From an uncultured Methanobrevibacter sp. (GTDB lineage: Archaea; Methanobacteriota; Methanobacteria; Methanobacteriales; Methanobacteriaceae): a stretch of 64,000 nt of DNA. This document shows, in pieces, positions 15,846 to 35,653 of this stretch (its first letter is position 1; the number at the start of each line of letters is the position of its first letter). The notes beneath the pieces were generated by a model. That model had not been told where the DNA came from. It worked only from the letters and a program-made list of their open reading frames with translations, and ran no database searches. The DNA lies in the NCBI RefSeq assembly GCF_946184425.1, contig NZ_CAMHFP010000002.1:35354-99353 (forward strand), written 5' to 3'. A program made the position numbers and the translations under genes.

Positions 15846-17705
15846 ATGAATAGTAATTTAAAATTTACATTTTTTTTAATCATTATTTTATTTGCAGTTG
15901 GCACGGTTCATGCTGCTGATTTTAATTCAACAGAAACAGAACAGTTAGGCTATGTCATTAATGATACTCATATTGAAACTGGCGGTTTGGGTGCAATTGA
16001 AAATTCAAGCGATTCACATTCGGTAGAAAAATCACATCCCATTATTTCAATTGATTCAAATAATATTAAAAGCAAAGATGTACTCAATATTAATTTGGTG
16101 GACAGTACAGGTAACGTTTTGAAATTTAAAAATATAACTGCAAAAATAAACAATAAGAATTTCAAGTTGGTGACTAATTCAAAAGGAGTTGCCAAGTTAA
16201 ATGTTAATCTTCCCGCTGGAAAATATAAACTGACAATTCAAACTAGGGAAGATGATAATTTCAAAGCCACTTCAAAAACATTTAATTTAAAACTATCAAA
16301 AATATCAACATCGATAATATACCAATCAAATTTTGTTTTAAATAATAACTATTTTTATTCATTTTTAAAGGATGAGAATGGCAATGGAATCTCATCAAAA
16401 AAGATTACATTAATTTTAAACGGAAAAACATATGTAAAAAAGACGAATGTCAATGGAAGAATTGCTATCAAAATCAAATCTTCCTCTAAAAAGCTTTCCA
16501 TTTATTATAAATTCGATGGAGATGATTATTATTTCAGAACATCGAAAAAAGTAAATTTTTATGTTAATGAACATACATCACTCAACATAGGAAATTCCAA
16601 ATTGATAACCGGAGGATATTTAAGAATATATCTCAAAGGTGAGGGTTATTCCAGTTATTGGAAAAAGACAATCACAGTTACAGTAGGAAATTTAAAATTT
16701 TCCAAAAAAACAAATGCAGAAGGTATTGTAATTATCAGGCCAAATATGGATGTGGGCAAATATAAGGTTTCAGCCAGATATGGAAAATACTATACATTTA
16801 AAATTATGTACTGCTATAAAGCAATCGCCAAGGATCCGTTGAAAGAAGTTGTTCCATTAAAAAATGGCGCTCCAGATATTGACGTCATGACTGGAAACTA
16901 TGTTGGGGGAGATGGAAGCAGAACTTATATACTCACTAAATCACAGTATATGGAAGTTTTAAAAAGGGATAGTCAATGTTTATTTTTAAAGAATAAATTA
17001 ACAAAATATGTATTCTTTAAAACAAAACATTATCCAAATACCTACCACATTCTCAATAGGGAAAAATGGAATGTAATTGAAAAAGCCATAAATGAAAAGC
17101 TTGTTGATGCAAATACTTATGGTTATTGGCCGGGCATAATAAAAGTGTCTTTAAAGGGAAGGTCATATTCATATCCTGAAGTCAGAGACTGGCAGGATAC
17201 AGCATATACTTGCGGACCGACTTCATGCAGTATGTGCAGTCAGGTTTTAAAAAATTATCTGTGTGAGGCGTATATTGCCAAATATGCACATTCTACAAAG
17301 GCTTTTGGAACTTCATGCTCTGACATGAGTAAGGTATTGGAAAAGAAGAATTTCAAATGTGAATACTATTACAGAAATTCATTTGCATATGCTTTGAATG
17401 AACTTAAAAAAGGAGGATGTGCGTTGGTATTCCATGCTAGAAATCATTATGTTGCTATATTAGATATCAGCACTAATGGTAAACTGGTATTGGTAAGCAA
17501 TTCCTATGGAACTTATGATAATATTGCATCTAAATGGCTGTCTGTTAGCTATATGAAGACAAGGTATTATAAAAACTATGATGATGGGCTGATAGTTCGT
17601 TTGAATTATAATCTGAATGACAACATCAAAAATCAGATAAGTTGCTATTATTCAAATTTTGTTCCGAACTGGGCTGCCCACAATACTCGCGAAACTGTGA
17701 GCTAA
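15846..17705 (+). CDS. Secreted Ig-like repeat protein with C-terminal C39-like cysteine peptidase domain
   Basis: Signal peptide; Ig-like repeats; C-terminal TCGPTSCSMCSQVL...GGCALVFHARNHYVAILDI...VSNSYG. Confidence 0.8.
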   Translation: MNSNLKFTFFLIIILFAVGTVHAADFNSTETEQLGYVINDTHIETGGLGAIENSSDSHSVEKSHPIISIDSNNIKSKDVLNINLVDSTGNVLKFKNITAKINNKNFKLVTNSKGVAKLNVNLPAGKYKLTIQTREDDNFKATSKTFNLKLSKISTSIIYQSNFVLNNNYFYSFLKDENGNGISSKKITLILNGKTYVKKTNVNGRIAIKIKSSSKKLSIYYKFDGDDYYFRTSKKVNFYVNEHTSLNIGNSKLITGGYLRIYLKGEGYSSYWKKTITVTVGNLKFSKKTNAEGIVIIRPNMDVGKYKVSARYGKYYTFKIMYCYKAIAKDPLKEVVPLKNGAPDIDVMTGNYVGGDGSRTYILTKSQYMEVLKRDSQCLFLKNKLTKYVFFKTKHYPNTYHILNREKWNVIEKAINEKLVDANTYGYWPGIIKVSLKGRSYSYPEVRDWQDTAYTCGPTSCSMCSQVLKNYLCEAYIAKYAHSTKAFGTSCSDMSKVLEKKNFKCEYYYRNSFAYALNELKKGGCALVFHARNHYVAILDISTNGKLVLVSNSYGTYDNIASKWLSVSYMKTRYYKNYDDGLIVRLNYNLNDNIKNQISCYYSNFVPNWAAHNTRETVS

Positions 17706-20203: not shown

Positions 20204-21100
20204 ATGGTTAATGATAATTCTAAAATGGATGAAATTAATAGATTAAAATCTCCTTTAAAATATAATGATTATAAGGTTTATGATAGTCATGGAAATGAAG
20301 TGAAATCTGTTGAAACATTTTCTGATTTAAAATATGTCATGGAACCTGATTCCAATATTTTAAGTGATGATGAAATCCTGGAATATGCTCCTCACTCAAA
20401 AGAGGCTTCCAAAGTCAGGCTTAAAAGGGGAGTTGGGAATAATTCTGATGTAATGCTTGTCAATGATTCACTTCCATGGATTATCGGATTATATTATATG
20501 ATTTTAATTTGCATTTCAATTCCAGTTATTTATGGAGGAAATCGCTTATCAATGTTTTTAATATTGATATTGGTTATTCTTCCTTTGATTTATCTGTATT
20601 ATATTTTCAATTTAAAACAATATGAGGATAAAAGCAGTAAAAAACTAATCAATAAATCCAGATTCAGTAATTCAACAATTTCAGAAATCAAAACAGATGA
20701 AGGACTTCAATCTCTAAAAAAATATGCGGAAGAAGTTGAAGAATTGAAAATAATTTTTGAATCAAAGGAAATTGCTGTCAGAAAATTGATTGAAAAACGT
20801 TTTGAGCCTCCTCAAATAACTTATGACAGATTTATATCTGCTATTGATAAGTCTCATGAATTGTTTTATCATGAAGCTAATGGAGCATTAAACATAACAA
20901 AATTAGCTGTTGAAGATACTCCAAGGGTGGAAAATGAGCTTGAAAATAAAATCAGTATTTTAAAATCAATCATTGATCAAATTGAGGATTTAACTAATGA
21001 ACTGGTAATCAATATAAATTCTGATGGAAAATCCGAGGATGTAAAAACTTTAGTGGATGATATGGAAAACCTGATAGATTCGGTTAAGGAATATAAGTAA
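20204..21100 (+). CDS. Membrane protein with C-terminal coiled coil, possibly XpaC-like
   Basis: Two central TM helices, long helical C-terminus; in operon with TelA-like gene. Confidence 0.55.
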   Translation: MVNDNSKMDEINRLKSPLKYNDYKVYDSHGNEVKSVETFSDLKYVMEPDSNILSDDEILEYAPHSKEASKVRLKRGVGNNSDVMLVNDSLPWIIGLYYMILICISIPVIYGGNRLSMFLILILVILPLIYLYYIFNLKQYEDKSSKKLINKSRFSNSTISEIKTDEGLQSLKKYAEEVEELKIIFESKEIAVRKLIEKRFEPPQITYDRFISAIDKSHELFYHEANGALNITKLAVEDTPRVENELENKISILKSIIDQIEDLTNELVININSDGKSEDVKTLVDDMENLIDSVKEYK

Positions 21101-21109
21101 GGGATTTAC

Positions 21110-21715
21110 ATGACAATAAAATGCCCAAAATGTGGAAAAGAACTGCCTGATGAATCTAAATTTTGTCTTGAATGTGGATGTCATATATATAATAAGAATA
21201 CCTCAAAATCTGAGTCAAATTTATTTTCAAATGGTAAAATTTTTTTGATTTTAATTTTTATAGTGTTAATTTTTGGCGGTGTTTTGATATTTTCAATGGG
21301 AGGAAGTGACAATAACCAAACAGCTGAAGATAGCATAAGCAAGGAAGCCAGTGAATTTTCATTCACTATAAGTGATGTGAATGGATATTACAGTGCTGAA
21401 AATAATAATTATTTCATATGGACTGAAGTATTATTCCAGAAAGTCCCATCCAATCAAAAAGACTATATTGTAAAAGTGACATATCTTGATGGGAACAACA
21501 CTGATATTGGTCATGAAATTGATAATCTGGCTAATATCTATTATGATGCTGATTATGCCCTATCCGTTGGTTATCATACTTCATATAAATACATGGATAT
21601 TGATTCCGTTAAAGTTGAAATAATTAAAGACGACCAAGTTATTAAAGAAGCTACTTCAAAAGTAGATAAAAATAAATTTAATTTCAATGCTCCTAAGGCA
21701 AATCAAACTAAGTGA
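21110..21715 (+). CDS. Zinc-ribbon, single-TM protein
   Basis: CPKCGKELPDESKFCLECG followed by TM helix. Confidence 0.7.
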   Translation: MTIKCPKCGKELPDESKFCLECGCHIYNKNTSKSESNLFSNGKIFLILIFIVLIFGGVLIFSMGGSDNNQTAEDSISKEASEFSFTISDVNGYYSAENNNYFIWTEVLFQKVPSNQKDYIVKVTYLDGNNTDIGHEIDNLANIYYDADYALSVGYHTSYKYMDIDSVKVEIIKDDQVIKEATSKVDKNKFNFNAPKANQTK

Positions 21716-21725
21716 TGGTGATATA

Positions 21726-22865
21726 ATGGCTGAATTTTCACTCGATGTAGATGAAATAAAAAATGATGTTGAAACAACTTTAAAAGAAGAAGAAGTAAAA
21801 TTGGAAAATTCAAATCTTAAAGACAAGGCTAGCCAAAATGCTGTAGCTATTTTTGAAGCAGATTTTAATAATCCTGCTGAAAGGGACAGTATTCTTAAAC
21901 CTTTGGAAGACTTTGGTATGGATGATATGTCCAAATCCTCCCAAAGAAATGAGCTTCTTGCCACTAGGTTTGTAGATATCAGCAAAGGTGGTCAGGATGC
22001 TGAAAATATTGGAGAAAAATTGTCAGAATTAGAAAGGCAAATGAAGGATTTGGATCCAAGTAAAGTGGATTTCACCAAAAAAGGAGTTTTAGGAAATATC
22101 ATGAATCCTGTTCGCAAATACTTCGCTAAATATGAAAAGGCTGAAACCTCAATTTCAAATATCATACAATCTCTTGACAACAGCAGTAAAGTCCTTCAAA
22201 ATGATAACGTAACTATTTCCAATGAAGAGGATAATTTAAGACAAGTTACAAATAAACTCTTAGCGGACATTGAACTTGGTAAAAAAATGGATGATTCAAT
22301 AGAAATGCAAATTCAACAGGCTGAAATGGAAGGAGTAGACCCCGAAAAAATTAAATTCGTAAAAGAAGAGATTTTATTCCCTCTCAGACAAAGAATTATG
22401 GATATGCAACAGATGATTGTTGTCAACCAGCAAGGAATCGTTTCATTAAATGTCATTAGAAGAAACAATAAAGAATTGATTCGTGGTGTAAATAGGGCTA
22501 AGAATGTAACAGTATCTGCACTCAGAACAGGTGTGATGGTTGCACGTGCACTATATGACCAAAAACTTGTGATGGACAAGATTAATATCTTAAACCAAAC
22601 AACTGAAGAAATCATCGAAACAACTTCTCATATGCTTCGCCAGCAAGGAAGCGAAATCCAAAAGCACAGTGCTGAAACTATGATTTCACCTGAAGTTTTA
22701 AAAGCTTCATTTTTAGAAGCTCTTGGCGCTATTGAAGATGTAAGTAAATATAAAGAAGAAGCCCTTCCTAAAATGAAGGAAACAATTGTTGTATTTAATG
22801 AAATGGCAAAAGACGGTCAAAAAGTTGTAGATCAAATAGAAACTAAAAACAATATGTTAAAATAG
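21726..22865 (+). CDS. TelA/KlaA-like toxic anion resistance family protein
   Basis: Long helical protein; VNQQGIVSLNVIRRNNKELIRGVNRAKNVTVSALRTGVMVARALYDQKLVMDKI. Confidence 0.85.
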   Translation: MAEFSLDVDEIKNDVETTLKEEEVKLENSNLKDKASQNAVAIFEADFNNPAERDSILKPLEDFGMDDMSKSSQRNELLATRFVDISKGGQDAENIGEKLSELERQMKDLDPSKVDFTKKGVLGNIMNPVRKYFAKYEKAETSISNIIQSLDNSSKVLQNDNVTISNEEDNLRQVTNKLLADIELGKKMDDSIEMQIQQAEMEGVDPEKIKFVKEEILFPLRQRIMDMQQMIVVNQQGIVSLNVIRRNNKELIRGVNRAKNVTVSALRTGVMVARALYDQKLVMDKINILNQTTEEIIETTSHMLRQQGSEIQKHSAETMISPEVLKASFLEALGAIEDVSKYKEEALPKMKETIVVFNEMAKDGQKVVDQIETKNNMLK

Positions 22866-29244: not shown

Positions 29245-30015
29245 ATGGGTGATTCAGAAATTACAAGTACAGAAATTATTGATTCATTTGACTGTGACAT
29301 CATTTCAAAAAAACTTGCAGCTATAAATAATAAAGTTAGATTTTCTATTTTGGAAATTTTAAGGAGCAATAATAAAGATCCGTTATACTCACGTGAAATA
29401 AATTCAATTCTTTTAAACAATTATAATATTTCTATTTCTGTCCAAATGTTGGGACAACACTTGAGGCAACTTGTTGAAGCTGAATTGATTGAAGAGGTTA
29501 GCGTTAAAAAAGAGGTTGTAAACAAGATTGGTAAAAGAAATGTTAATGGGTATTGCATAAGAAATAATGCTTTTGAAGATTTATTTTTGGAAATTTCTTT
29601 TTTATCAGATGAAATCCTGGCATTCTTTGATGTGCATCAAAGTAACTTTAAAAAAGACGATGATGAATATTGCAGATTAACTGTATTTAACGGACCTGAC
29701 AAAGGCAAATTCTTTAAAATTTCTAAAGATGAGACAGCATTTATCGGTCGTAAAAGCAAGTTCAAAAATGAAGACTTTGATTTTCCGGTTGTTTTATTGG
29801 ATGATGAATATTCTACTGTTTCTAATGTTTCAAAACCCCACTTAAAATTATTCAATAGGGATGATTCATGGTATATTCTAGATGAAGGAAGCTCCAATGG
29901 TACTTTTATCAAAGATACTGAAATACCAATCGGCAAACCTACACCAATAAGGAACAATTCTTTCATTAAATTGTCCCGAGGCAACGGAGGAGCAGTAATT
30001 CATTGCTTATTTTAA
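29245..30015 (+). CDS. Winged-helix plus FHA domain protein
   Basis: NNKVRFSILEILRSNNKD...LGQHLRQLVEAELI (wHTH); AFIGRKSKF...SNVSKPHLKLF..SWYILDEGSSNGTFI (FHA). Confidence 0.85.
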   Translation: MGDSEITSTEIIDSFDCDIISKKLAAINNKVRFSILEILRSNNKDPLYSREINSILLNNYNISISVQMLGQHLRQLVEAELIEEVSVKKEVVNKIGKRNVNGYCIRNNAFEDLFLEISFLSDEILAFFDVHQSNFKKDDDEYCRLTVFNGPDKGKFFKISKDETAFIGRKSKFKNEDFDFPVVLLDDEYSTVSNVSKPHLKLFNRDDSWYILDEGSSNGTFIKDTEIPIGKPTPIRNNSFIKLSRGNGGAVIHCLF

Positions 30016-33000
30016 TTGGTGATTTTGTTGGATTTTGAAGAAATTAAAGACCTTGTCGGCAATTATTTCAATGGTCAGTATGAGGTAAAAAAATTTTTAG
30101 GCGAAGGATCATTTGCAAAGGTTTATCTGGTAAAGCATAATTACCTGGATGATTTTCGTGCAATGAAAATTATTAAGGAGCCTATAAGTCCGACAACAAA
30201 TATAAAATCTGTTTTTCATGAAGTGATGCTTGCAACCAAATTGAGGCATGAAAATGTAATAAGCATTTATGATGCCGGTATAATGTCAAGGGATATTGTA
30301 AATAAAAGCAAACGTGACCTTGCTTTTTTTGTATTGGAATATGTGCAGGGAGGAGACTTGGAGCAATATTTGAATTCATTTATAAATTCAAATATACTGA
30401 TGCCAATAAATCGTGCGTTAGACTTAATAAAGCAGATATTAATGGGTTTAAATACTCTTCACATGTCAAATCCTCCAATTGTTCACAGGGATTTGAAGCT
30501 GAACAATATTCTGCTTACATATGATAAATGTGGTGAAATTGTTGTAAAAATATCTGATTTTGGCTTTTCAAAGGAAGTAACCACAAGCATTTCCGATATT
30601 GATATAGGAGGTACACGGCCATATATGGCTCCGGAATGTTTTAACAAGATATTATCTCCAATGGTTGATATTTATGCGGTAGGAATCATTTTTTATCAGT
30701 TGCTGACAAATAGATTACCTTATAATGTTGATGATTTCACGACAGAAGAGATGTTGGATTTAAAACCATGGCAAAATAAATTTGAGCCTCCGAGTTTTTA
30801 TAATAAAAATGTTTCAAAGAATTTGGATGAAATTGTAATGAAGTGCCTTGAATTCAGTCCTCAAAATCGTTATCAGAATGCATCAGAAGCATTGAATGAT
30901 GTGGAAATAGCCATTAATGAATTCAAACCTTTAAAGGTTGAAAAAAATCATGTTAGTGATGATTATTTTACGGATTACATTTTAAATGACTCACTTAAAA
31001 AAGCTTTTATGCTTGCTAAAATTGAAAATAAGTTGAATGAAGCTATTGAAATTCTTGAAAGTGAAGTTTTAAGGGATTTTGATGTAAGGAAATATTATGG
31101 CCAAAGACTAAAAATGTGGAAGTCAGAATATCCTGATGTAAAATTAGTTTCCAGTGCTTTTACGGTTAATTTGAGTGGAAAAAATTATAAATTATCATGT
31201 GATTTATTAAAGGAAGCTATAGCTTATAATCCTTCAATTAAAAATAAATATTATCATTTCATTGATTTGTGGCAGATTTTCATAGATTTGTCAAATGAAG
31301 GCAATTTGGTTAAGGCAGTTCTGGAATTGGAAAGTTTAATGGACTTGAATAATCATATTCGAGATATTTATTCTCCAATTATAAATATATTGAAGACTTT
31401 TTCCGTTGAAGAGATCGTTGCACAATCTGTCCATTGGGTAAATTCGAATAACTTGGTCGATGCCTCAAATTTAATGGAATTTGCAGTTGTATATGATTCA
31501 AATATCTGTGAAGAATATGGATACAAACTGTCTTTGTGGAAGCAAAACATGAATACTGATTTTAAAGTTGGCACTCAGGTTGAAGGGGAAACTATTGATT
31601 ATGCAATTGATTTGGGAACAACAGATTCCATTCTTTCTTATTATAATGAAGGAAACCCTCAGATTATTAAAAATTATAAAACAGGAAAAGATTATACACC
31701 ATCAGCGGTTCTAATTGATGAAAATAATGATGTGTATATTGGAGAACATGCTAAAAAGGCATTATTGCTGGATAATTCCAATGCTGTATCTGAATTTAAA
31801 CATAATATGGGATTTTCAGTTCCATTTAATTTTAAAAATGCTTCACGTGAAATGCAACCTGAGGAACTGTCAGCTGAAATTCTAAAGGAATTAAGAGTAT
31901 CTGCATTCAAACAATGTGGTGTAAATATGGACCATGCAGTTATTTGCGTTCCTGCAAATTCCAATAACATAAAAACAAGAGCAATCAATGATGCCGCAAA
32001 TCTTGCCGGTTTCAGGTCACATACATTGTTATTGGAGCCGATAGCTGTAGCTTTAGCTTATGATTTATCTTCATATGGAGATGCAAATTGGATTATTTAT
32101 GATCTCGGCGGAGGCACATTTACTCTTTCCTTAATCAGGTATAAATCTGGTGAAATTGAAAAGATAGACAGTATCAGATTGGATGATTTTGGAGGAGATA
32201 CTTTGGATTGGGCTATTGTAGATGAAATTTTTGTTCCAAAAATTCTCGATGATTTGCATCTGATTGATTTTAGAAGGCATAATCAAAAATATAAGCAAAT
32301 TTTTTCAAAACTTAAATTAGCCGCCGAAAAATCTAAAAAAGAATTGGATATTACTACTTCGACAGATATATGTTTAACTAATCTTTTCAGTAATTATGAC
32401 TTTACTTATAATTTATCAAGAGATGAATTCATTCAAACGGTACAATCATTAATTAAACCTACATTTAATTTGGCACAAAATTTGTTAAATCGCAATTCAT
32501 TATCATTCGATGAAATTGAAAAAGTTGTTCTTGTAGGTGGCTCATGCATTAGTCCTGTTCTTCGCAGCATAATTGGAAAGAATTTTGATGTTCCTTTGAA
32601 ATTCAGTTTAAATCCTCTAACAGCAGTTGCCAAAGGGGCTTCAATTTATGCGGGAAGTTTGAAAAAGCCGAAAATTAGAGTATATGATGGTCCAGTATCT
32701 GTAATTATTAATTCATGTGACGGACATGTTGATGGAAGGATTTTCACACCTGATGACAAATTTTCATTTTTAGGTTATTTCATAGAGTTTTCAAATTCCA
32801 ATAATTCATCAGGTAAAGTTCCAGTTAATCTGGATGGAACTTTTGATGTAAATATTAAAAAGGGTGATTATGATATCATGGTTTATGACGGTGAGGGTAT
32901 TGTCAAAATTGATGAAAAATCACCAAAATCAATTAAAAATGATGAAATATATATTGAATTTATAGATAAATCCTTTTCAAATAATCATAGTTTGAGAGTT

Positions 33001-33561
33001 GATGAAATCATAAACTCCTATAATGGCTTAATTAAAAAAGTCGACTATCTAAAGGACTATTCATTTTATCTGAATGAAATTGATATATTGAATTATTTGG
33101 ACAGGTTAGTTGATATTGTTCAAATTGATAAAAGGGCATTGCTTCAGACTTCAATTTACACTGATTATCTTGAATCTATTGTAGAGAAAAATTTGGATTA
33201 CCTGAATTTTTCAATTATTTTGGAAAATATTGAAAATAAAGTAAAAATCATAAATGAAAATAAGCTATTTAATATAGATAATTTGGAGAAAAAATTAAAA
33301 GAGGCTGTTGAATTAAAAGATTTCAACAAACTAGATGATATTTATAATAGCTTGATGAGGAAATATATTGAAATAAATCGCAAAGATGTGATTATCTCAA
33401 GCTTTTTTAATCTAAAGTCTGAAGGCATTTATATTAATAATATGGAAGAATTCAATCATCTGTCTAAAAGGGCAACAGTTTCATTGGAAAAACAGGATTA
33501 TGACGCTTTGGCAGAAATTGTATGCAGATTATATGAAATTGATGAAAGATTTAAGGAATAG
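30016..33561 (+). CDS. Hanks-type Ser/Thr protein kinase fused to Hsp70 ATPase domain
   Basis: Kinase: GEGSFAKVYLVKH, AMKII, IVHRDLKLNNIL, DFGF, APE. Hsp70: AIDLGTTDSIL, IYDLGGGTFTLSLI, VVLVGGSCISPVLRSII. Start may be TTG at 30025/30028. Confidence 0.92.
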   Translation: MVILLDFEEIKDLVGNYFNGQYEVKKFLGEGSFAKVYLVKHNYLDDFRAMKIIKEPISPTTNIKSVFHEVMLATKLRHENVISIYDAGIMSRDIVNKSKRDLAFFVLEYVQGGDLEQYLNSFINSNILMPINRALDLIKQILMGLNTLHMSNPPIVHRDLKLNNILLTYDKCGEIVVKISDFGFSKEVTTSISDIDIGGTRPYMAPECFNKILSPMVDIYAVGIIFYQLLTNRLPYNVDDFTTEEMLDLKPWQNKFEPPSFYNKNVSKNLDEIVMKCLEFSPQNRYQNASEALNDVEIAINEFKPLKVEKNHVSDDYFTDYILNDSLKKAFMLAKIENKLNEAIEILESEVLRDFDVRKYYGQRLKMWKSEYPDVKLVSSAFTVNLSGKNYKLSCDLLKEAIAYNPSIKNKYYHFIDLWQIFIDLSNEGNLVKAVLELESLMDLNNHIRDIYSPIINILKTFSVEEIVAQSVHWVNSNNLVDASNLMEFAVVYDSNICEEYGYKLSLWKQNMNTDFKVGTQVEGETIDYAIDLGTTDSILSYYNEGNPQIIKNYKTGKDYTPSAVLIDENNDVYIGEHAKKALLLDNSNAVSEFKHNMGFSVPFNFKNASREMQPEELSAEILKELRVSAFKQCGVNMDHAVICVPANSNNIKTRAINDAANLAGFRSHTLLLEPIAVALAYDLSSYGDANWIIYDLGGGTFTLSLIRYKSGEIEKIDSIRLDDFGGDTLDWAIVDEIFVPKILDDLHLIDFRRHNQKYKQIFSKLKLAAEKSKKELDITTSTDICLTNLFSNYDFTYNLSRDEFIQTVQSLIKPTFNLAQNLLNRNSLSFDEIEKVVLVGGSCISPVLRSIIGKNFDVPLKFSLNPLTAVAKGASIYAGSLKKPKIRVYDGPVSVIINSCDGHVDGRIFTPDDKFSFLGYFIEFSNSNNSSGKVPVNLDGTFDVNIKKGDYDIMVYDGEGIVKIDEKSPKSIKNDEIYIEFIDKSFSNNHSLRVDEIINSYNGLIKKVDYLKDYSFYLNEIDILNYLDRLVDIVQIDKRALLQTSIYTDYLESIVEKNLDYLNFSIILENIENKVKIINENKLFNIDNLEKKLKEAVELKDFNKLDDIYNSLMRKYIEINRKDVIISSFFNLKSEGIYINNMEEFNHLSKRATVSLEKQDYDALAEIVCRLYEIDERFKE

Positions 33562-33787: not shown

Positions 33788-34825
33788 ATGGATAAATCTC
33801 AAAAAAAGAATCTGTCTTTAAGTATTAATAATAGGAATATAAATATAATCTTTTTAATATTATTTATTTCCAATATCATTCTTTATGGGGCATTAATTAC
33901 TCATTATTCTTCTCATTATGAGGTATATTTTCATATGAGCAATCTTAATGACATATTTGCTATGGTTTCAGCAGTCATTATATTGGGATTTATCTCTACA
34001 AGATTGCCACAGTTTAGAAAATTGGGTGACAGTTCCATTTATGAAGTCAGCTACCTGATTATCTTTGGTATAGTGGGTATGGTTGTTTCTTATTTCAATA
34101 AAATCAGTAATTCTGAAGCATTTATAGCTCCTTTTTTTGATATGTTTAAAGTTTTATCTGTGATGTTGATTTTAATGATTATTGCAACTAAAACAAAACC
34201 TTTTAAAAACATGTTAAAAGGTAAATTCACCAAAAAAAATCTGTTTTTATGCTTTATAATATTCACTATTTTGGGATGTTTTGCATCTAAATATCATATT
34301 TATGTTGACAGTACTCCTGCAAATGTCCGATGTCTGATTATAATGGTTGGAGGATTGCTTGGAGGGCCTTTAGTTGGAATACCTTCTGCAATAATATCTG
34401 GAATATTCAGGTTTATTCAAGGGGGTCCTACAGCATTTCCATGTGCAGTTTCAACAGTTCTTGCGGGATTAATCGGAAGCATGATATTTGTCTGGAATGA
34501 CAGAAAGATTCTTCGCAGGTTACATGCAGTTATTTTAATGTTTCTCTTCATAGGATTAGAAATGTTGCTGATTGTGGTTTTGACACCTCCAAGTATATCA
34601 TTTGGTTATATTGAAGATGTTTATCCGTTGATGCTTTTTGCATCAGTGTTGGGAATGATTCTGTTTTTAATGATTGTCCGTGAACAGAAGGATAACAGTA
34701 AACATGATATAAGTTATGAGGAATTGAGAATTAATGAGCTTGAAAACACTCTGGATGAATATATGGACAAAGTTGACGATTTGCAGGAAGAAATAGATAA
34801 CTTGAAGAATGAGGATTCAGATTAA
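33788..34825 (+). CDS. 5TMR-LYT-like sensor membrane protein with C-terminal coiled coil
   Basis: RCLIIMVGGLLGGPLVGIPSAIISGIFRFIQGGPTAFPCAVSTVLAGLIGSMIF; C-terminal ELENTLDEYMDKVDDLQEEIDNL. Confidence 0.75.
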   Translation: MDKSQKKNLSLSINNRNINIIFLILFISNIILYGALITHYSSHYEVYFHMSNLNDIFAMVSAVIILGFISTRLPQFRKLGDSSIYEVSYLIIFGIVGMVVSYFNKISNSEAFIAPFFDMFKVLSVMLILMIIATKTKPFKNMLKGKFTKKNLFLCFIIFTILGCFASKYHIYVDSTPANVRCLIIMVGGLLGGPLVGIPSAIISGIFRFIQGGPTAFPCAVSTVLAGLIGSMIFVWNDRKILRRLHAVILMFLFIGLEMLLIVVLTPPSISFGYIEDVYPLMLFASVLGMILFLMIVREQKDNSKHDISYEELRINELENTLDEYMDKVDDLQEEIDNLKNEDSD

Positions 34826-35653
34826 CCTGGCTACTGTATATTCGCCCAAAAAGTCAAACAGGATTTCAGCTTTTTGATTTTCATTGATTGATTTTTTAAT
34901 GTCACTTGCACTTTTTACTTCTTCAATTAATGTGTAATCGCTGTTTGCCACATAGCCGGCAATTTTCTCATTAAAAAAGACTGCTATTGCATCAGGATCA
35001 TGCTCGTTTTCAAGGTCTCTAATCAAATCAACAACGATTCCACTTTTTGGTGTAAAATTATAAAAGCCTGTTCCCGCAATTATAATTAAAATATCTGAGG
35101 TATTATTCAGATAATCAATTTGATTCTCTAATTCTTTAAGTCTGTCAAATTCATTATATGCCATCAGGTAGGCTTTTTGTGCTTCAACAAGATTTTCCAT
35201 GCCTTCAAGAATTTCGGCCTTTAAAAAATAGAATTCAGAGGGGTCTTCACTTTCAGGAAGGATATCTAATGCATCATCAATTAAAATAAGTGACTTATCG
35301 TAATTGCCTTCGGGGAAAAATGTGACTTTTGAAAAATCATACAGGCATTTTGCTTTATTTAATCTGATTTCTTGACAATCACAAAGGGATAATGCATTGT
35401 CAAAGCATTCAATAGATTTTTCATATTCTTTTAGATTATTTAAAATAATTCCTTTGAGATTCCAGTTTGAAAAGTCTTTATCATTTTCCAGTATCTTATC
35501 GATGTGTGTTAATGCTTTTTCATAATCTTTTTGATTAATCAAATGCTCAATTTTGGAAGTTTTTGAAACTTTGAATTTTGCCTGGTGTGTGCTGTCATCT
35601 GTTTTGTCATCAAAATCAATATAAAGATAATTATTTGTCATGTTATCTCTCAA
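34817..35653 (-). CDS. TPR repeat protein with C-terminal HIRAN-like domain
   Basis: TPR helices (NWNLKGIILNNLKEYEKSIECFDNAL); IIIAGTGFYNF...LIRDLENEHDPDAIAVFFNEKIAGYV. Confidence 0.75.
   Translation of the reverse strand: MRDNMTNNYLYIDFDDKTDDSTHQAKFKVSKTSKIEHLINQKDYEKALTHIDKILENDKDFSNWNLKGIILNNLKEYEKSIECFDNALSLCDCQEIRLNKAKCLYDFSKVTFFPEGNYDKSLILIDDALDILPESEDPSEFYFLKAEILEGMENLVEAQKAYLMAYNEFDRLKELENQIDYLNNTSDILIIIAGTGFYNFTPKSGIVVDLIRDLENEHDPDAIAVFFNEKIAGYVANSDYTLIEEVKSASDIKKSINENQKAEILFDFLGEYTVARLI

Follow-up and report, generated by a model that had tools for sequence, protein, structure and literature searches.

A protein kinase fused to an Hsp70 nucleotide-binding domain without SBD-beta, encoded beside an HTH-FHA gene in Methanobrevibacter

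The window analysed here is a stretch of 64,000 nucleotides from an uncultured Methanobrevibacter sp. (contig NZ_CAMHFP010000002.1, positions 35,354 to 99,353 of the forward strand). Positions 30016-33561 on the plus strand form a single open frame that begins with a TTG codon and contains no internal stop, encoding 1181 amino acids when counted from TTG 30016. The actual start may be a later TTG at about 30025-30028 (near 30028), because GGTGAT at 30018-30023 resembles a ribosome-binding site and the alignment of many homologues begins only at DF(N/D). Ending one base before the frame starts is a gene on the same strand (29245-30015) whose product combines a winged-helix DNA-binding domain (HTH_20, E 3.9e-5) with an FHA phosphothreonine-reader domain (E 2.9e-9). 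The FHA residues G168, R169, S193, H199, N218 and G219 are invariant among 15 homologues, and this HTH-FHA gene lies directly upstream of the fusion gene in all 19 fused loci for which upstream sequence exists.

A reading made from the letters alone had proposed that the 1181-aa product joins a Ser/Thr kinase and an Hsp70 ATPase in one chain. Pfam profiles and identically fused homologues in 20 genomes of Methanobrevibacter type confirm this, and the kinase, phosphate-1, phosphate-2 and adenosine motifs that it named could all be located in the protein. The homologues share 52-65% identity with the window protein, and all named relatives are Methanobrevibacter. Within its own genome the protein is the top Pkinase match and one among several HSP70 matches, distinct from an ordinary DnaK-like protein of 628 aa. 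Nonsynonymous divergence (NG86) is well below synonymous divergence in the kinase, the linker, the nucleotide-binding domain (NBD), the beta domain and the helical tail, with dS saturated in the wider pairs. In G064, G088 and G068 a contig end interrupts the homologue. A merger of two genes by misassembly or frameshift could be entertained, given that relatives carry unfused neighbour genes. However, there is no stop between the two parts, the same fusion with a conserved junction occurs in the 20 genomes, one of which (G039) is assembled as a single contig, and the fused proteins form one clade sharing two losses described below, that of SBD-beta and that of the D201 aspartate. Such an error therefore has practically no chance of being the explanation, and the kinase/Hsp70-NBD architecture is secure.

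The kinase domain occupies residues 22-294 (30079-30897; Pkinase, E 1.3e-48) and carries the full catalytic residue set, with GEGSFAKV at 29-36, AMK with K51, E69, HRDLKLNN at 157-164, DFG at 181-183 and APE at 205-207. K51, E69, H157/R158/D159, N164, D181/G183, E207, D218 and R285 are kept in all homologues wherever the sequence covers them. All the hallmarks of a Hanks-type (PknB-like) kinase are thus present, from the Gly loop, Lys, alphaC Glu, HRD, Asn, DFG and APE to the F-helix Asp and the subdomain XI Arg. The domain is apparently an intact RD-type Ser/Thr kinase, predicted from these residues to be active in phosphotransfer. PADLOC matches to mad6 and PD-T4-6 were set aside, as they reflect only the generic kinase domain. 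In a full-length AF2 model, built on a 20-sequence alignment, the kinase N-lobe is poor (pLDDT below 50), and contacts between the kinase and the NBD were therefore left uninterpreted.

Between the kinase and the Hsp70 part lies a linker of Y..L.W repeats (residues about 325-510; 30988-31545). AF2 places helices across 325-509, with pLDDT of about 90 over much of residues 400-500, and the mean column identity among homologues is 71%. Three aromatic segments had been singled out in the sequence-only reading; they are real, they map to 361-371, 412-422 and 503-513, and the linker alignment shows conservation at their key positions. Searches of the linker against PDB and Pfam matched neither TPR nor any other family, and for this reason we call it helical repeats only. 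Of the 152 genomes of the phylum, 29 match a profile of the linker, and every one of these belongs to one of three genera of the Methanobacteriaceae.

The Hsp70 NBD spans residues 531-883 (31606-32664; HSP70, E 1.2e-61). The profile match covers positions 4-376 of 599 and therefore includes the NBD only. Phosphate-1 (IDLGTT, 531-536), phosphate-2 (YDLGGGTF, 695-702) and adenosine (LVGGS, 839-843) motifs are in place, and Foldseek aligns the domain to DnaK NBDs with target TM scores reaching 0.92 across 365 columns. The equivalents of DnaK D8, K70, D194 and T199 are invariant in the 20 fusions (the last three being K595, D696 and T701), and that of E171 (E674) is kept in 19. Position 703 corresponds to DnaK D201 and Hsc70 D206, and here 16 of the fusions have N, two T, one S and one H, while none has Asp; all 15 unfused Hsp70 relatives read GGGTFD there and so retain D201. 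The complete DnaK ATPase residue set, which includes D201/D206, was accordingly found in none of the fusions. This aspartate has a role in metal and K+ binding, and its mutants hydrolyse ATP more slowly. Some ATPase activity remains in Hsc70 D206 mutants, so that hydrolysis by the fusion NBD may persist. The retained K70, E171, D194 and T199 equivalents and glycine motifs, together with the low dN/dS of the NBD, argue for retained nucleotide binding.

The C-terminal tail had been described as novel, beta-rich and helical. It does lack a canonical SBD-beta, the peptide-binding domain of Hsp70/DnaK, but it is not unrelated to Hsp70. Unfused Hsp70 relatives have three parts after the NBD, namely an additional beta domain, a canonical SBD-beta and a helical part, and a profile of the last two finds Hsp70 substrate-binding domains in PDB (best E 9.2e-7). 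The fused tail can be aligned over its full length to the complete unfused C-terminus (hhalign probability 99.9%, E 1.1e-33), the one large gap, of about 107 residues, falling on SBD-beta. What stands before the gap is an FN3/Ig-like beta-sandwich (residues 894-987; 32695-32976; AF2 pLDDT about 90); what follows it is a helical part (residues 995-1175; 32998-33540), the counterpart of the SBD-alpha and C-terminal helices of unfused Hsp70. An AF2 model of the tail (pLDDT 87.9) likewise shows a beta-sandwich and a helical bundle. Its top Foldseek matches are mostly FN3/Ig-like sandwiches, all with E above 0.001; Hsp70 substrate-binding domains are absent among the best 50 matches, and a sequence profile of the fused tail alone returned nothing useful from PDB. 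Judged by the alignment, the tail is a reduced Hsp70 C-terminus in which the FN3-like domain and the helical part were kept and SBD-beta was deleted. In comparison with DnaK and Hsc70, the fusion thus has the NBD fold and motifs in common but is without SBD-beta, has lost the catalytic Asp and has a kinase attached. Given the deletion of SBD-beta and the loss of the D201-equivalent Asp, binding of clients in the Hsp70 manner is unlikely.

Unfused relatives of the system exist in the Methanobacteriaceae (G028, G019 and G114, and G022, without upstream sequence), as operons of FHA, kinase and Hsp70 genes. These share with the fused loci the kinase-linker family and the HTH-FHA gene, but differ in that kinase and Hsp70 are two genes and the Hsp70 retains SBD-beta and D201. 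Unfused loci of genus g9 have RtcB, SIS and FHA genes upstream and encode a DUF4062-AAA-WD40 protein downstream. A kinase tree unites the fused proteins in one clade, with support of 0.94, beside the unfused FHA-kinase-Hsp70 pairs of another genus; in an NBD tree they again form one clade, with low support (0.42). A single fusion event is the simplest reading of these trees. The step from an unfused kinase with a full Hsp70 to a fused kinase with an Hsp70 lacking SBD-beta would make a natural series in which a chaperone turned into a signalling module. A paralogous unfused module, conserved in the Methanobacteriaceae and sometimes adjoining TIR proteins, comprises a ClpB-like AAA+ protein, a kinase, two uncharacterised proteins for which PDB gave no relative, an Hsp70 with SBD-beta, a metallophosphatase, a small protein and TPR proteins (L048:3315-14744). 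Two of its products, the 'NGFRILGL' protein and a 272-aa protein, were considered as J-domain/GrpE parts and rejected, because the profiles found no support in PDB.

A typical fused locus contains genes for an RtcB paralogue, a SIS protein, the HTH-FHA protein, the fusion, a calcineurin-like phosphatase and RyR-domain proteins. Among the fused loci, RyR proteins were counted in 15, SIS in 13, the phosphatase in 11 and the RtcB paralogue in 10. The RyR-domain proteins are about 750 aa long and often occur as two in tandem (L070:10724-12991 and similar). RyR genes are present in 20 of the 21 fusion-bearing genomes of the genus (one of them, G069, fragmentary) versus seven of the 46 others (Fisher p 2.8e-10, uncorrected for kinship). 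TIR domains were found in one fused-locus example, and TIR genes also lie beside RyR genes, as in the window's own genome, where the end of contig C33 holds a TIR-like cassette with an RyR protein. In a related locus, one gene adjoining them carries TIR domains (L010:13581-15503), and linked genes gave TIR_2/ThsB_TIR matches; no ThsA-like (Thoeris) protein was identified among them. Genome G094 has a second kinase-Hsp70 copy with stop codons within the Hsp70 part (contig C27, L053:2336-5856), which adjoins RtcB, SIS, FHA and phosphatase genes. A pattern search of IMG/VR viral contigs did not find the system.

The window's own locus consists of the HTH-FHA and fusion genes only; phosphatase, RtcB and SIS neighbours are missing there and in the closest relative, G073. 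The window's genome (93% complete) gave no match to the co-operonic phosphatase type, and none to the RtcB paralogue, its only RtcB being a canonical one of 492 aa. On contig C31 of the same genome is a second HTH-FHA and kinase pair without Hsp70 (L078:5721-7649), whose kinase is truncated within the linker.

Taken together, these features make it probable that the fusion serves a stress or defence operon as a signalling switch, and improbable that it works as a chaperone. In more specific terms, domain anatomy and synteny suggest, with about an even chance in our estimation, a nucleotide-gated signalling kinase in which a chaperone-derived switch reports to an FHA regulator and a stress/conflict operon. 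The NBD would bind ATP and hydrolyse it slowly or not at all. Its opening and closing, coupled through the FN3-like domain, the helical tail and the linker, would gate the kinase or hold partners, with no folding of clients. The kinase would phosphorylate itself, effectors or both, and the adjoining HTH protein could then read the phosphothreonine through its FHA domain and change transcription of the operon. Where present, the calcineurin-like phosphatase would reset the system. The TIR and RyR partners suggest that the output may be a stress or anti-invader response based on an NAD-derived nucleotide of cyclic-ADPR type. A plausible chemistry for these partners comes from a 2026 preprint in which phage RyR-domain proteins cleave or bind cADPR immune signals (PMC13232231). 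It is possible, though here we are distinctly more tentative, that the fusion acts as the regulatory centre of an archaeal immune system not described before, with a client-free Hsp70 ATP switch gating a kinase that governs both RtcB RNA repair and TIR/RyR signalling of the cyclic-ADPR type. We know of no defence phenotype for the system.

Other readings give the Hsp70 part a different task. With the FN3-like/helical tail or the linker as its sensor, it might detect proteins that are unfolded or have aggregated and turn the kinase on, leading to heat-shock-like transcription through the HTH-FHA protein. The paralogous module speaks for such a proteostasis sensor, since it joins the same kinase family with a ClpB-like AAA+ protein, a full Hsp70 with SBD-beta and a phosphatase, a disaggregation-type set; the fused version, however, is without SBD-beta and has no ClpB neighbour, its partners being RtcB, SIS, RyR and TIR proteins, and we consider this reading unlikely. 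The sequence-only reading had offered two roles of its own. That the kinase phosphorylates the chaperone cycle found no support, as no ordinary dnaK gene adjoins the fusion and the invariant adjoining partner is the HTH-FHA phospho-reader. That the Hsp70 part is a nucleotide-gated client recruiter or scaffold may hold in its second half only, a nucleotide-gated scaffold being possible and a recruiter of the Hsp70 type being unlikely without SBD-beta.

A scaffold in the strict sense would be an inert actin fold that places the kinase near the FHA protein and effectors with no nucleotide cycle. That every fusion lacks both SBD-beta and the D201 Asp speaks for this, but an inert domain sits poorly with the ATP-site residues and glycine motifs kept in nearly all 20 fusions and with the low dN/dS of the NBD, and we doubt that it is correct. 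A very slim chance remains for an operon devoted to RNA repair by the RtcB paralogue in response to RNA damage, merely regulated by the kinase-Hsp70 protein: the paralogue recurs in unfused FHA-kinase-Hsp70 loci as well as in 10 fused ones, but is missing from several other fused loci besides having no match in the window's genome. The conserved RtcB-SIS-FHA-phosphatase-RyR-TIR neighbourhood provides a concrete proposal for a stress/defence operon in rumen and gut methanogens, organisms in which, to our knowledge, little signalling is known.

Chains that combine a kinase with Hsp70 are already on record; relative to the literature examined, what is new here is the deletion of SBD-beta, the loss of D201 and the operon. 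A BMC Genomics survey of 2005 lists a kinase and HSP70 protein of Pirellula sp. (gi|32474490; PMC1262709). As listed there, with no mention of linker, tail or neighbourhood, it resembles the fusion in having a Ser/Thr kinase and, C-terminal to it, an HSP70-homologous domain within one chain, but its host is bacterial (a planctomycete), and the likeness to the window protein is one of description alone. Archaeal chains of Hsp70 and Ser/Thr kinase are encoded on Halomicrobium plasmids (NZ_CP044130.1, 118993-122475, L093:8578-12057; NZ_CP039376.1, 53800-57276), where they are annotated only as GrpE; their Pfam matches are HSP70 (E 6e-166), GrpE (E 6e-10) and Pkinase (E 2e-25). They differ from the fusion in having the reverse domain order, GrpE mid-chain, and HLD/DWG instead of HRD/DFG in the kinase, and their HSP70 match extends to profile position 574 of 599, so that a substrate-binding region is present. 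The differences in order and parts suggest that the Halomicrobium fusion probably arose independently. At least three distant groups (Methanobrevibacter-type, Halomicrobium and Pirellula) thus encode a kinase and an Hsp70 in a single chain, an indication that the two activities are directly linked in function. Two further plasmids of Halomicrobium carry copies of the NZ_CP044130.1 chain with 90% identity. A search of plasmids for the window protein found no full-length relative.

Comparable parts also occur in the GAP1-N2 GTPase conflict systems of Kaur et al. 2020 (PMC7159879), which include HSP70/GrpE/DnaJ and FNIII proteins. These are predicted conflict operons in which Hsp70, in some cases without the peptide-binding domain, stands beside FNIII, TPR, kinase and phosphatase parts; the portions of that paper describing them contain no kinase-Hsp70 chain. 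In the subset of neighbouring proteins scanned at the fusion loci, there was no match to a GTPase or GAP1. On the Haliscomenobacter plasmid pHALHY02 (NC_015512.1, L092:7989-12328), an Hsp70-family gene abuts a gene for a Ser/Thr kinase-AAA+ fusion, with TerB and BREX genes (pglZ, brxL) alongside.

Several further genes of the window were noted. Downstream of the fusion, 33788-34825 encodes a membrane protein with a 5TMR-LYT domain and a short coiled-coil tail, without a kinase domain, and G073 has an ORF of similar size at the matching position. The TPR protein at 34817-35653 has a C-terminal part that is HIRAN-like by eye (GTGFY...NEHDPDAIAVF...GYVA), without confirmation by Pfam. Three genes at 20204-22865 encode a membrane protein, a zinc-ribbon protein and a helical protein that by eye resembles the TelA type (toxic-anion resistance). 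Judged by eye, the product of 15846-17705 is a secreted protein in which Ig-like repeats are combined with a C-terminus resembling cysteine peptidases (CGPTSC motif), and it may be a pseudomurein peptidase.
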